Source: Clostridia bacterium
Lineage (GTDB): Bacteria; Bacillota_A; Clostridia; Lachnospirales; Lachnospiraceae
DNA length: 5,518 nucleotides
NCBI GenBank assembly: GCA_012515365.1
Contig: JAAYYM010000229.1
Location: 1 to 5,518 of the forward strand
Reading direction: 5' to 3'
The notes under the pieces are model-generated. The model saw only the letters and a program-made list of their open reading frames with translations. It made no database searches and was not told the DNA's origin. A program made the translations under genes and the position numbers. This document shows, piece by piece, positions 2,469-5,518 of the stretch; the first letter of the stretch is position 1, and each line of letters starts with the position of its first letter.

Positions 2469-2508
2469 TCCGGTTGGTAAGTATTTGTTGTAGAACTGGA
2501 CTTTTTTT
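2469..2508 (+). terminator. Rho-independent terminator between the fic operon and the CRISPR locus
   Basis: TCCGGTT (2469-2475) pairs with AACTGGA (2494-2500) as a 7-bp stem with one G-U pair and an 18-base loop. Seven T residues follow at 2502-2508. It would end transcripts from the fic side and insulate the small RNA gene that follows. The long loop makes it moderate rather than strong. Confidence 0.5.
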
Positions 2509-2525
2509 GTTGATAATGGTATTAT
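2497..2525 (+). promoter_or_regulatory. Promoter of the crRNA-like RNA
   Basis: TGGACT (2497-2502, four of six -35 consensus bases) and TATTAT (2520-2525, five of six -10 bases) are separated by 17 bp. The predicted start of transcription, 2531-2533, falls exactly at the beginning of the Cas12a repeat. An isolated repeat with a private promoter placed this precisely argues for a dedicated RNA gene and not array debris. Confidence 0.55.
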
Positions 2526-2532
2526 ATTTCAG

Positions 2533-2552
2533 TAATTTCTACTATTGTAGAT
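2533..2552 (+). CRISPR. Single isolated Cas12a-type direct repeat (mature part)
   Basis: TAATTTCTACTATTGTAGAT matches the processed repeat of type V-A crRNAs: AATTT, stem TCTAC (2538-2542), loop TATT (2543-2546), stem GTAGA (2547-2551), then T. This is the pseudoknot/hairpin handle bound and cut by Cas12a. Only one copy is present. The 5' part of a full 36-base array repeat (usually starting GTTT or GTCT) is absent, and no second repeat follows within spacer distance. It is therefore a mini-array remnant or a dedicated guide gene, not a working array. Confidence 0.93.
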
Positions 2553-2573
2553 AGTAAGTGCGTTTTTTAACAC

Positions 2574-2612
2574 AAGCAAGATGTGACAGGTTATGTCATA
2601 TGTTGCTTTTTT
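2574..2612 (+). terminator. Strong intrinsic terminator of the crRNA-like RNA
   Basis: Bases 2574-2588 pair with 2594-2608 around a five-base loop (2589-2593). The stem has 14 pairs with one G-G mismatch (2580/2602) and one G-U pair. The T tract runs 2607-2612. It stops the small RNA two bases before the cas12a -35 box (2615), so the small RNA and cas12a should be separate transcripts. Confidence 0.8.
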
Positions 2613-2614
2613 AA

Positions 2615-2643
2615 TTGACAAAAAGTGTATATCATGATATTGT
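2615..2643 (+). promoter_or_regulatory. Promoter of cas12a
   Basis: A perfect -35 TTGACA (2615-2620) is followed after 17 bp by TATTGT (2638-2643, four of six -10 bases). The predicted start is around 2649-2651, giving a leader of about 26 bases. A strong -35 with a modest -10 fits a promoter that is kept in check by repression. Confidence 0.75.
2629..2640. promoter_or_regulatory. 12-bp perfect palindrome within the cas12a promoter
   Basis: ATATCATGATAT is a perfect palindrome that fills the downstream part of the -35/-10 spacer and overlaps the -10. The position suits a dimeric protein repressor acting in addition to the predicted guide RNA. No regulator is known from this window. Confidence 0.35.
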
Positions 2644-2650
2644 CATAACA

Positions 2651-2663
2651 GCACTTACTTAAA
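2651..2663 (-). promoter_or_regulatory. Predicted Cas12a target site (seed match plus TTTA PAM) in the cas12a leader
   Basis: On the minus strand the sequence reads TTTA (PAM, 2663-2660) followed by AGTAAGTGC (2659-2651), identical to the first nine guide bases of the crRNA-like RNA. The site spans the predicted transcription start and ends one base before the GGAGG ribosome binding site. Cas12a bound here should block open-complex formation or early elongation. Confidence 0.8.
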
Positions 2664-2664
2664 A

Positions 2665-2669
2665 GGAGG
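2665..2669 (+). promoter_or_regulatory. Ribosome binding site of cas12a
   Basis: GGAGG at 2665-2669 is seven bases before the ATG at 2677, an optimal spacing that fixes the cas12a start. It directly abuts the predicted Cas12a target and PAM. Confidence 0.85.
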
Positions 2670-2676
2670 AAAAATT

Positions 2677-5518
2677 ATGAAGAACACTCTCTATAACAGT
2701 TTCATCAATAAATATCCTGTATCAAAGACTTTACGCTTTGAGCTGCGTCCACAAGGAAAAACACTCGAAAATATCGAAAAGAACGGGCTGCTGGAAGAGG
2801 ATATACACAGGGCAGAAAGCTATAAGGTAGTTAAAAAAATCATTGACGAGTATCATAAGTGCTTTATTGATGAGGCGTTAGAAGGTTTACGCCTTCAGGA
2901 GCTTGACGAATTTTATGATTTATATATGAAACGAAATAGAACAGATAAAGAAACAAAGGAGTTTGAAGAGTATCAAACAAGTTTAAGAAAGCAGGTTTCA
3001 AAGACACTGAAAGCACATCCGGCATATAAGACGTTATTTTCAGCAGATTTGATAAAAATTGACTTGCTGAATTTTGTCGAGGATGATGACCGAAGAAAAG
3101 TAATTGAAGAGTTCTCCAACTTCACTACATATTTTACGAATTTTCATACAAATCGTGAGAATATGTATAGTGATGAAGCCAAGTCCACATCAATAGCATT
3201 CAGAATTATCCATCAGAATCTTCCCAAGTTCATTGACAACATGAATACATTCAAAAAGGTGGCAGTTACAGATGTAAAAGCTAACTTTTCGACCATAGAG
3301 AAGGAACTTCAGCCGATTATGCAGGTAAACTGTGTAGAGGAAATGTTTGAAATGGAATATTTCAATTTGACGCTCACACAACAAGGAATTATTGCGTACA
3401 ATAGTATTTTGGGTGGGTTTGATGATGGGAACAATAAGCAGTATAAAGGTCTTAATCAGTACATTAATCTATACAATCAGAGACAAGGTAAGGATGGAAA
3501 ACTTGGAAAACTGAATATGTTATTCAAACAAATTCTGAGTGACCGTATCACAGCATCATTTATCCCGGAGATGTTTGAATCAGATCAGGAAGTAATAGAT
3601 GCGGTAAGATCATTTTATGAGCTGGAGATAGATAATTTTGTACAGACACACAATGTGTTATCCAAGATACAGGAACATGATCTTGAGAGAATCTATTTGA
3701 GAAATGATTTATCGCTAACCGAAATATCTCAGAAAATCTTTGGTGATTGGAGTGTTATACAAAATGGGCTGGGGATACAGTATGATTCTGATTATAGTGG
3801 AAAGAAGAGACCTAATACACTTGTATATGATGAAGAAAAGAAGAGGGTTTTGAAGAACAGGGGCAGTTTCTCTCTTACAGAAATTAATGAGGCCATTTCA
3901 TATTGCACCGGCGATAAGACTTACAATTCTATAGATCATTACTATGGAGCGTGCGAATTAAGTAACAAGGGCGGCGAGAGGGTTTGTTTTGTAAACGTGA
4001 TAAGAGAAAATTATGAAAAGGCGAGTGAGTTGTTGTGCACGGAGTATCCGAAGAATCAGAAACTGGTTAGTGATCAGCGAAGTATAGACTTAATCAAGAG
4101 CCTGCTGGATGCAATCAAGGATTTTCAGCGATATCTTAAGCCACTGTTGGGTAAGGGTGATGAGGCAGAAAAAGACGAAACCTTTTATGGAGAATTTCTC
4201 CCACTGTACGAAAGACTGGACTGCATAACGCTTTTGTATAACCGTGTAAGAAACTATGTTACACAGAAGCCATATTCAACAGAAAAGATTAAATTGAATT
4301 TTGCCAACTCTACCCTTATGAATGGTTGGGATTTGAATAAAGAAGCAGACAATACCGGAACAATTTTAAAAAAAGATGATTTGTATTATCTTGCAATAAT
4401 GGATAAAAAGGCAAATAGGGTGTTTAAGGATTATACAGATAATACAGATAATACAGATGAAAGTACGGATTACTATGAGAAGATGGAATATAAGTTATTA
4501 CCGGGACCTAACAAAATGTTGCCGAAAGTCTTTTTCTCAAAGTCGAGAATAGAAGAATTTGCTCCCAGTAATGAAATTATGGAGAACTATGCGAACAACA
4601 CGCATAAAAAAGGAGAGACCTTTAACATCAATGATTGTCGAAAGCTGATAGACTTTTTTAAGAAATCTATTAATCAGCACGAAGACTGGAAACATTTTAA
4701 TTTTCGTTTTTCGCCAACCGACACATATAATGACTTGAGTGGTTTTTATCGTGAAGTGGAGCAGCAGGGATATAAGATTACATTTCGACATGTATCTGCG
4801 GATTATATTGATAGAATGGTTGAGGAAGGTCGATTATATCTATTCCAAATCTATAACAAGGATTTTTCTCCACATAGTAAAGGATTACCCAATATGCACA
4901 CATTATACTGGAAAGAACTTTTTTCAGCGGAGAATCTAAATAATGTGGTGTACAAATTAAATGGCCAGGCAGAAGTTTTCTTTAGGAAAGCAAGCATAAC
5001 ACAAAAAGATATGGTGACACATGAGGCAGGATTACCTATTAAGAACAAGAATAAGTTAAATAAGAAGGTGGACAGTACATTTGAATATGAACTTATTAAG
5101 GACAAACGTTATACAGTCGATAAGTTCCAATTCCATGTACCTATCACAATGAACTTTAAGTCGGCGGGAGAAGAGAGGCTAAATAGATCTGTGAATGAGT
5201 GCATAAAGTATGCAGATGATGTTCATGTAATCGGAATTGACAGAGGTGAGAGACACTTACTTTATCTTACTGTAATCAATAGTCAGGGAGAAATTGTTGA
5301 GCAGTATTCTTTGAATGAGATTATTACAGGGACAGAAGCGAGTCCTCATCCCGTCAATTATCATGACTTGTTAGAATCAAAGGAAAAGAATAGAACATCT
5401 GCAAGACAGAACTGGAAGACAATTGAAAATATCAAGGAACTGAAAGAGGGTTATTTGAGTCAGGTTATTTACAAGATTAGTCAATTAATGCTTAAGTATA
5501 ATGCAATTGTTGTTCTGG
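2677..5518 (+). CDS. cas12a: CRISPR-associated effector nuclease Cas12a (Cpf1), type V-A; 3' end outside window
   Basis: An open frame of 947 codons runs off the right edge, about three quarters of a usual protein of roughly 1,250-1,300 residues. Cas12a processes its own crRNA and cuts PAM-flanked DNA guided by it. The N-terminus (YPVSKTLRFELRPQGKTLENI) is the WED-I/REC1 start. REC1 shows FTTYFTNFHTNRENMYSDEA (residues about 150-169). WED-II/PI follow with KPYSTEKIKLNF, GWDLNKE (Lys555, like the PAM-contacting K548 of the Acidaminococcus enzyme) and GPNKMLPKVFFSKS (Lys617, like K607). In WED-III, His782, Lys791 and Lys808 match the crRNA-processing residues H843, K852 and K869 of the Francisella enzyme. 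IGIDRGERH carries the RuvC-I catalytic Asp855. The sequence stops after NAIVVL, just before the expected RuvC-II Glu (EDLN), so RuvC-II/III, bridge helix and Nuc domains are unseen. No frameshift or stop is seen, so it is probably active. It is likely autoregulated by the crRNA-like RNA upstream. Confidence 0.98.
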   Translation, partial: MKNTLYNSFINKYPVSKTLRFELRPQGKTLENIEKNGLLEEDIHRAESYKVVKKIIDEYHKCFIDEALEGLRLQELDEFYDLYMKRNRTDKETKEFEEYQTSLRKQVSKTLKAHPAYKTLFSADLIKIDLLNFVEDDDRRKVIEEFSNFTTYFTNFHTNRENMYSDEAKSTSIAFRIIHQNLPKFIDNMNTFKKVAVTDVKANFSTIEKELQPIMQVNCVEEMFEMEYFNLTLTQQGIIAYNSILGGFDDGNNKQYKGLNQYINLYNQRQGKDGKLGKLNMLFKQILSDRITASFIPEMFESDQEVIDAVRSFYELEIDNFVQTHNVLSKIQEHDLERIYLRNDLSLTEISQKIFGDWSVIQNGLGIQYDSDYSGKKRPNTLVYDEEKKRVLKNRGSFSLTEINEAISYCTGDKTYNSIDHYYGACELSNKGGERVCFVNVIRENYEKASELLCTEYPKNQKLVSDQRSIDLIKSLLDAIKDFQRYLKPLLGKGDEAEKDETFYGEFLPLYERLDCITLLYNRVRNYVTQKPYSTEKIKLNFANSTLMNGWDLNKEADNTGTILKKDDLYYLAIMDKKANRVFKDYTDNTDNTDESTDYYEKMEYKLLPGPNKMLPKVFFSKSRIEEFAPSNEIMENYANNTHKKGETFNINDCRKLIDFFKKSINQHEDWKHFNFRFSPTDTYNDLSGFYREVEQQGYKITFRHVSADYIDRMVEEGRLYLFQIYNKDFSPHSKGLPNMHTLYWKELFSAENLNNVVYKLNGQAEVFFRKASITQKDMVTHEAGLPIKNKNKLNKKVDSTFEYELIKDKRYTVDKFQFHVPITMNFKSAGEERLNRSVNECIKYADDVHVIGIDRGERHLLYLTVINSQGEIVEQYSLNEIITGTEASPHPVNYHDLLESKEKNRTSARQNWKTIENIKELKEGYLSQVIYKISQLMLKYNAIVVL
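4432..4458 (+). repeat. 9-bp tandem repeat inside cas12a
   Basis: Three copies of (A/T)ATACAGAT in frame (4432-4440, 4441-4449, 4450-4458) encode YTD-NTD-NTD (residues 586-594), followed by the similar EST-D. It falls in a variable surface loop at about the WED-II/PI boundary, between the conserved LAIMDKK and KLLPGPNK segments. Copy number could change by slippage without breaking the frame. Confidence 0.75.

Follow-up and report, generated by a model that had tools for sequence, protein, structure and literature searches.

For CreRs (cas-regulating RNAs), the primary paper is given as Liu et al. (Cell Host Microbe, 2023; doi 10.1016/j.chom.2023.08.005). In the review sections available, CreRs are described as acting in type I-B, I-E and V-A systems by partial promoter complementarity (PMC13131331, PMC12737573, PMC12948488), as a first-pass annotation of the DNA studied here had likewise stated, and their derepression by competing crRNA or anti-CRISPR proteins is described as well (PMC12737573). 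CreA of CreTA is also made from an ectopic repeat and brings its effector, Cascade, to a promoter by a partial match, repressing a toxin; according to the accessible part of the same source, ectopic repeats are generally degenerate (PMC9458426). Racrs are solitary repeats under a promoter, with V-A candidates among them, which the available text describes as unassociated with cas genes (PMC10651486). Short natural guides can also keep a class 2 effector on DNA: in the excerpts at hand, SpyCas9 auto-repression is relieved by Acr proteins (PMC13131331) and scaRNA works with Cas9 (PMC9458426). A search covering part of the literature found no survey of V-A CreRs.

The window (the whole stretch of DNA analysed, 5,518 nt) ends within a cas12a gene that begins with an ATG at 2677 and stays open to the window end (2677–5518, plus strand; 947 aa), with matches to REC1, REC2, a PI-like region and the start of RuvC. 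Its product shares 54–59% identity with the best 119 of the other listed proteins. On the same strand, direct reading of the window gives a perfect single-copy Cas12a crRNA handle, the 3' part of a V-A repeat (TAATTTCTACTATTGTAGAT, 2533–2552, 20 nt), whose 5-bp stem folds and which is followed by a 21-nt guide (2553–2573). The first 9 nt of this guide, AGTAAGTGC (2553–2561), directly 3' of the handle, form a seed that matches the cas12a start region: read as the reverse complement from 2663 to 2651, the minus strand gives a TTTA PAM (2660–2663) and then the identical nonamer (2651–2659). Handle, nonamer and minus-strand copy with its PAM all lie exactly where the first-pass annotation had placed them. 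The target sits between the predicted −10 box of cas12a (2638–2643), which belongs to a promoter-like site found by consensus scan (TTGACA-17-TATTGT with TG ahead of the −10; 2615–2643, plus strand), and the ribosome-binding site AGGAGG (2664–2669, plus strand), which abuts the PAM; a 20-nt protospacer would extend to 2640 and overlap the −10 box. Past the seed, 5 of 11 further bases agree (14 of 20 overall), which is barely above chance. The repeat had been called isolated, and it is so within the window, where this handle is the single one and which does not include the CRISPR array of the genome. The 9-nt seed match likewise occurs once in the whole window besides the guide itself; the second-best match is 8 nt long, lies inside cas12a (+2584) and is preceded by ATAA, thus lacking a PAM. 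An Rfam search gave no match at gathering thresholds.

How often such a match arises by chance was estimated from 4,000 dinucleotide-preserving shuffles of the −800 to +60 region (860 bp). The 9-nt seed was present in 15 of them and lay beside TTTV in none. TTTV precedes 3.3% and TTTA 1.4% of positions in the eight regions examined, and multiplying the seed rate in shuffles by the TTTV rate gives an estimate of ~1 in 8,000 for seed plus TTTV over 860 bp, and less over 200 positions. The match is therefore improbable, as had been argued before, although the earlier figure of 1 in 100,000 was somewhat optimistic against this shuffle-based value.

In its layout the element resembles a complete RNA gene, with promoter-like boxes, handle, 21-nt guide and terminator. 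A consensus scan, together with −10 positions in relatives, places a promoter-like site TGGACT-17 nt-TATTAT, with TG ahead of the −10 box, at 2497–2525 (plus strand), and a transcription start ~7 nt past TATTAT would be at 2532, the edge of the handle. The scan found 3 promoter-like sites in 450 bp against 1.7 (s.d. 1.4) in shuffles; as such sites are no rarer in it than by chance, the scan alone is no proof of a promoter. Downstream of the guide lies a terminator hairpin followed by six T (2574–2612, plus strand). In a fold of 2569–2613 it reaches −18.0 kcal/mol (z −5.4), and none of 200 shuffles of this segment was equally stable; a simple terminator scan, in which stems permit no bulge, did not list it. 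The hairpin ends 2 bp ahead of the −35 box of cas12a, which starts at 2615, so the predicted RNA unit fits within 2497–2612. T-run hairpins also lie 3' of the guide in two of the loci compared below (L024 and L130).

Together, these features indicate that 2497–2612 is very probably the gene of a crRNA-like RNA, a type V-A CreR, predicted to guide Cas12a to its own promoter and repress cas12a. As with CreRs in the available review text, V-A with Cas12a included, a crRNA-like RNA from an ectopic repeat is predicted to bring the effector to the promoter of its own cas gene through a partial match. The window has one intact handle outside an array, and promoter-like boxes and a terminator that suggest RNA production; the guide matches the cas promoter region partially, by 9 nt beside TTTA, and the same rule is followed in six of seven other loci with a handle near cas12a. 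The handle is intact, and in place of the 5' half of the repeat there is a −10-like box. In this it differs from the ectopic repeats treated in the accessible part of PMC9458426, since just the 5' half is missing. CreA of CreTA shares the ectopic repeat RNA and the partial promoter match (PMC9458426, as far as available), but it represses a toxin with degenerate repeats and Cascade, whereas in the window the matching site belongs to cas12a itself and the handle shows no degeneration. The natural short guides that hold Cas9 on DNA, known to us from partial sources, resemble the element in its predicted hold of a class 2 effector on DNA, yet they are Cas9-type RNAs without a Cas12a handle, and the target of scaRNA is a lipoprotein operon.

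A Fic gene upstream made CreTA a candidate, which was rejected because no seed site with a PAM was found at that gene. Besides the guide itself, the two sites in the window that match the seed over at least 7 nt are the cas12a site and the 8-nt site inside cas12a, and the guide thus has no match to a linked toxin promoter. The Fic region itself (1586–2358) comprises a 59-aa frame and then a Fic/DOC gene broken by an in-frame TAG (2155–2157), both halves of which match Pfam Fic when searched separately; it may be a decayed Fic toxin–antitoxin pair or reflect a sequencing error. Further upstream, 431–1123 is an Asp/Glu racemase gene (Pfam PF01177) whose closest named relative is from Alkalibaculum bacchi (80% identity), a hint of a Bacillota host for the window DNA, and 2–223 on the minus strand is the start of an Ala/Glu-rich frame for a predicted secreted protein or lipoprotein, cut by the window edge.

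For comparison with other loci, 25 of 120 listed Cas12a proteins were aligned into a pattern with which a genome collection was scanned. This gave 377 pattern matches, 307 of which encode relatives; the best 80 of the 307 were kept and one viral contig was added. Whole-genome searches found cas12a in 7 of 397, 5 of 298, 17 of 393 and 6 of 245 genomes, with partly overlapping loci, and contributed 20 regions. Of the resulting 102 oriented loci, the window included, we dropped L074 (no start found) and L027 (upstream region the same as that of L022), leaving 100, in seven of which the cas12a frame is shorter than 700 aa. Protein searches of plasmid and phage collections returned one distant Cas12a, on a Butyrivibrio plasmid (L147), and one 5% fragment; such a handle is absent from the 18.9 kb of the plasmid locus. 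Seed matches were scored in the −800 to +60 region of each locus, with guides against the regions of all other loci as control.

Isolated perfect handles numbered 16 among the 100 cas12a loci. Eight of them lie within 1 kb upstream of cas12a (the window, L024, L144, L033 on the minus strand, L004, L076, L017 and L040). A seed match of at least 7 nt beside TTTV, in every case TTTA, was present in the own region for seven of these eight near handles compared with 3 of 792 cross-locus pairs, and the difference persisted at 8 nt or more (6 of 8 versus 0 of 792) and at 9 nt (5 of 8 versus 0 of 792). Because the window was known beforehand, the new matching cases are six of seven. The comparison thus supports the reading of the element as a CreR-type RNA. 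In the seven matching near loci, the match extends 7–15 nt from the guide start and is the longest seed match anywhere in the 5.5–18 kb examined, tied in L076 by two sites without a PAM. Taken singly, the shorter matches are weaker evidence: in shuffles, the 7-nt match of L033 with TTTV was seen in 14 of 4,000, the 8-nt match of L076 in 3 of 4,000 and the 5-nt match of L017 in 100 of 4,000. Altogether, eight other cas12a loci share the layout of the window with guides of their own, the match being weak in one.

The same counts bear on the possibility that the solitary repeat is an RNA anti-CRISPR, a Racr-like decoy from a mobile element, with an incidental seed match. In the available text of PMC10651486, type V-A Racr candidates inhibit a system of Moraxella bovoculi, solitary repeats of viruses are often found directly downstream of a promoter, and the solitary repeat in the window follows a promoter-like site. 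However, an incidental match would not be expected to recur in the own locus at seven of eight against 3 of 792. Racrs are repeats on viruses or plasmids, described in the same partial source as unassociated with cas genes, whereas the element of the window directly abuts cas12a on its upstream side and carries a seed that matches the start region of this gene; the window DNA had no match in phage or plasmid collections, and its guide, taken as 19 nt, had none in viral contigs. A decoy of this kind is therefore very unlikely.

Of the 8 isolated handles distant from cas12a, five lie within ~75 nt of a sequence end and are probably array ends. The other three are those of L067, L057 and L077. 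In L067 the handle stands beyond the array and its guide has a 9-nt match beside TTTG. The handles of L057 (10050) and L077 (11170), downstream of cas12a, have no PAM-adjacent site of at least 7 nt in the cas12a upstream region, and the best sites of their guides elsewhere in the locus lack TTTV; these two of the three distant handles not at a sequence end thus count against the main reading. Three further cases, L067, L130 and L069, were reached by other routes and are counted separately from the eight near ones. L130 has a handle with a perfect stem and a 7-nt loop and a 9-nt match beside TTTA. In L069, the final repeat of an ordinary array (7273–7303), where the contig ends inside the spacer, is followed by 12 nt that match the cas12a start region beside TTTA; this is a predicted array-encoded form of the same self-targeting. 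As L130 and L069 were found through a TTTV filter, their PAMs are not independent evidence.

Relaxed handles were also scanned. Among handles with one or two mismatches upstream of cas12a, an 8-nt seed match was found in 0 of 11 and 0 of 56, respectively. Those with exactly three mismatches gave 9 of 668 against 12 of 6,610 in the control (~1.2 expected). These nine comprise six cases already found, now with their register shifted (L076, L144, L004, L024, L040 and the window), L130, and two loci that we did not count, L007 and L143, in which the matching words are AT-rich. L130 is less certain than the main cases since it emerged from this three-mismatch set.

A repeat-spacer unit orphaned from a CRISPR array, with a spacer of foreign origin, would also leave an intact handle, and the matching guide of L069 does sit in an ordinary array. 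Ordinary array spacers, however, match their own cas12a upstream region at the chance rate only (4 of 930 versus 90 of 18,359 in the control at 7 nt); at 9 nt the counts are 1 of 930, the case of L069, and 3 of 18,359. Furthermore, a terminator stands 3' of the guide in the window, and wherever the ectopic copy could be compared with the array repeat of its own locus (L024, L144, L033, L004 and L067), it has retained the 3' handle, in some loci with an altered loop, and lacks the 5' half of the array repeat. We give an array remnant very little probability.

At the place of a normal repeat's 5' half, a perfect TATAAT ends 6–9 nt ahead of the handle in L024, L144, L017 and L040, where 0.7–2.2% of positions qualify; its counterpart in the window is TATTAT. 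With a −10 box at this distance, the RNA would start at the handle, making 5' processing unneeded. L033, L004, L076 and L067, all labelled Bacteroidota, have no such −10 box ahead of the handle. In L067 and L076, TATCTTTG overlaps the PAM or sits downstream of the target; its sequence fits the Bacteroidetes TAnnTTTG element. L024 (JAMPFJ010000001.1) is labelled Bacteroidales; its genome was placed in the family of L036, which is labelled Lachnospiraceae, and it has upstream TTGACA/TATTAT boxes. It is probably a mislabelled MAG.

When the best seed site was picked without regard to the PAM, it was preceded by TTTA in seven of the eight near cases; in L017, sites beside TTTA and ATTG are equally good. 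Guides and targets vary between loci yet agree within each locus. Handle and seed match had been expected to be kept together in relatives, which held for the seven near handles with at least 7 nt, whereas the match of L017 is down to 5 nt, a mismatch at position 6 and then 3 nt, beside TTTA. Covariation of guide and promoter site was borne out in part. L017 and L040 (both labelled Campylobacteraceae) have alignable upstream regions, and their guides differ at positions 5 and 8, where the targets changed likewise, giving two compensated changes; at position 6, the target of L017 changed and the guide did not, an uncompensated change. This variation also speaks to the idea that a protein repressor binds the nonamer copies as operator half-sites, with the handle there by coincidence. 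The copies in the window do form an inverted repeat ~90 bp apart, but they are direct in L017, L040 and L067, and the repeated word varies by locus while the handle on one side and TTTA/TTTG on the other stay, making such an operator extremely improbable.

The position of the target near the ribosome-binding site would also suit an ordinary antisense RNA, whose AGUAAGUGC would base-pair to GCACUUACU within the 5' untranslated region of cas12a and block translation without DNA guiding by Cas12a. The guide of the window is the complement of the mRNA strand immediately 5' of AGGAGG, and targets lie on the minus strand in eight of 11 cases. In the other three (L017, L040 and L067), the target is on the plus strand and the guide has the sequence of the mRNA strand instead of its complement. 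Likewise, the targets of L144 and L024 coincide with the −10 and −35 boxes or precede them and would hence be outside the mRNA. Pairing to mRNA also has no need of a Cas12a handle or of TTTA/TTTG beside the target. As targets occur on both strands, mRNA pairing cannot be general, whereas a PAM-dependent block on DNA fits both, and we regard the antisense explanation as unlikely. One location weighs against guidance of Cas12a to its own promoter as well: the target of L004 is 170 bp upstream of the ATG, ahead of its own handle, and we counted it against that main reading.

The element was present in 11 of the 100 loci, weakly in L017, and about nine in ten of these cas12a loci are without it. 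When the 11 carriers are mapped on a FastTree tree of 94 Cas12a proteins, 11 changes are required, of which starred branches force no fewer than nine, and the scatter is at least as great as with shuffled labels. Such a pattern would follow from repeated gain, from loss or from cases that were missed. For the closest relatives of L004, L024, L069 and L144, upstream regions were aligned for remnants of the element and are too diverged to separate gain from loss.

Cleavage by Cas12a usually needs matches longer than 7–15 nt. We propose a model in which the small RNA is transcribed from a promoter whose −10 box occupies the place of the 5' half of a normal repeat, so that its 5' end would be that of the mature handle, and is loaded into Cas12a via this handle. 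The 9-base seed match beside TTTA at 2651–2663 would then park Cas12a on its own promoter, the match being presumably enough to hold the protein and too short for cutting. Held there, Cas12a would block RNA polymerase, perhaps the ribosome too, and cas12a would be repressed. By analogy with the CreR review, repression would track free Cas12a and relax when array crRNAs or anti-CRISPRs occupy it.

V-A CreR autorepression is already known, and the element of the window is a further V-A case, predicted from its sequence and comparisons. For the broader picture, our confidence is evenly balanced: Cas12a self-silencing RNAs may have been built repeatedly in Bacillota, Bacteroidota and Campylobacterota, several by fusion of a −10 box to a handle, with seeds of ~7–15 nt beside TTTA at their own cas12a start, below cutting length, and with array-encoded (L069) and beyond-array (L067) forms as well, amounting to a convergent means of fixing the setpoint of a single-protein CRISPR effector. 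The comparison adds ten loci whose guides and targets are named, which makes the rules of Cas12a autorepression on PAM, seed length and position directly testable, and such natural guides suggest which short matches hold Cas12a without cutting. If the CreR reading of the window is right, its diverged Cas12a adjusts its own amount through a single small RNA, without a protein regulator, and its output would rise when guides or anti-CRISPRs tie up Cas12a.
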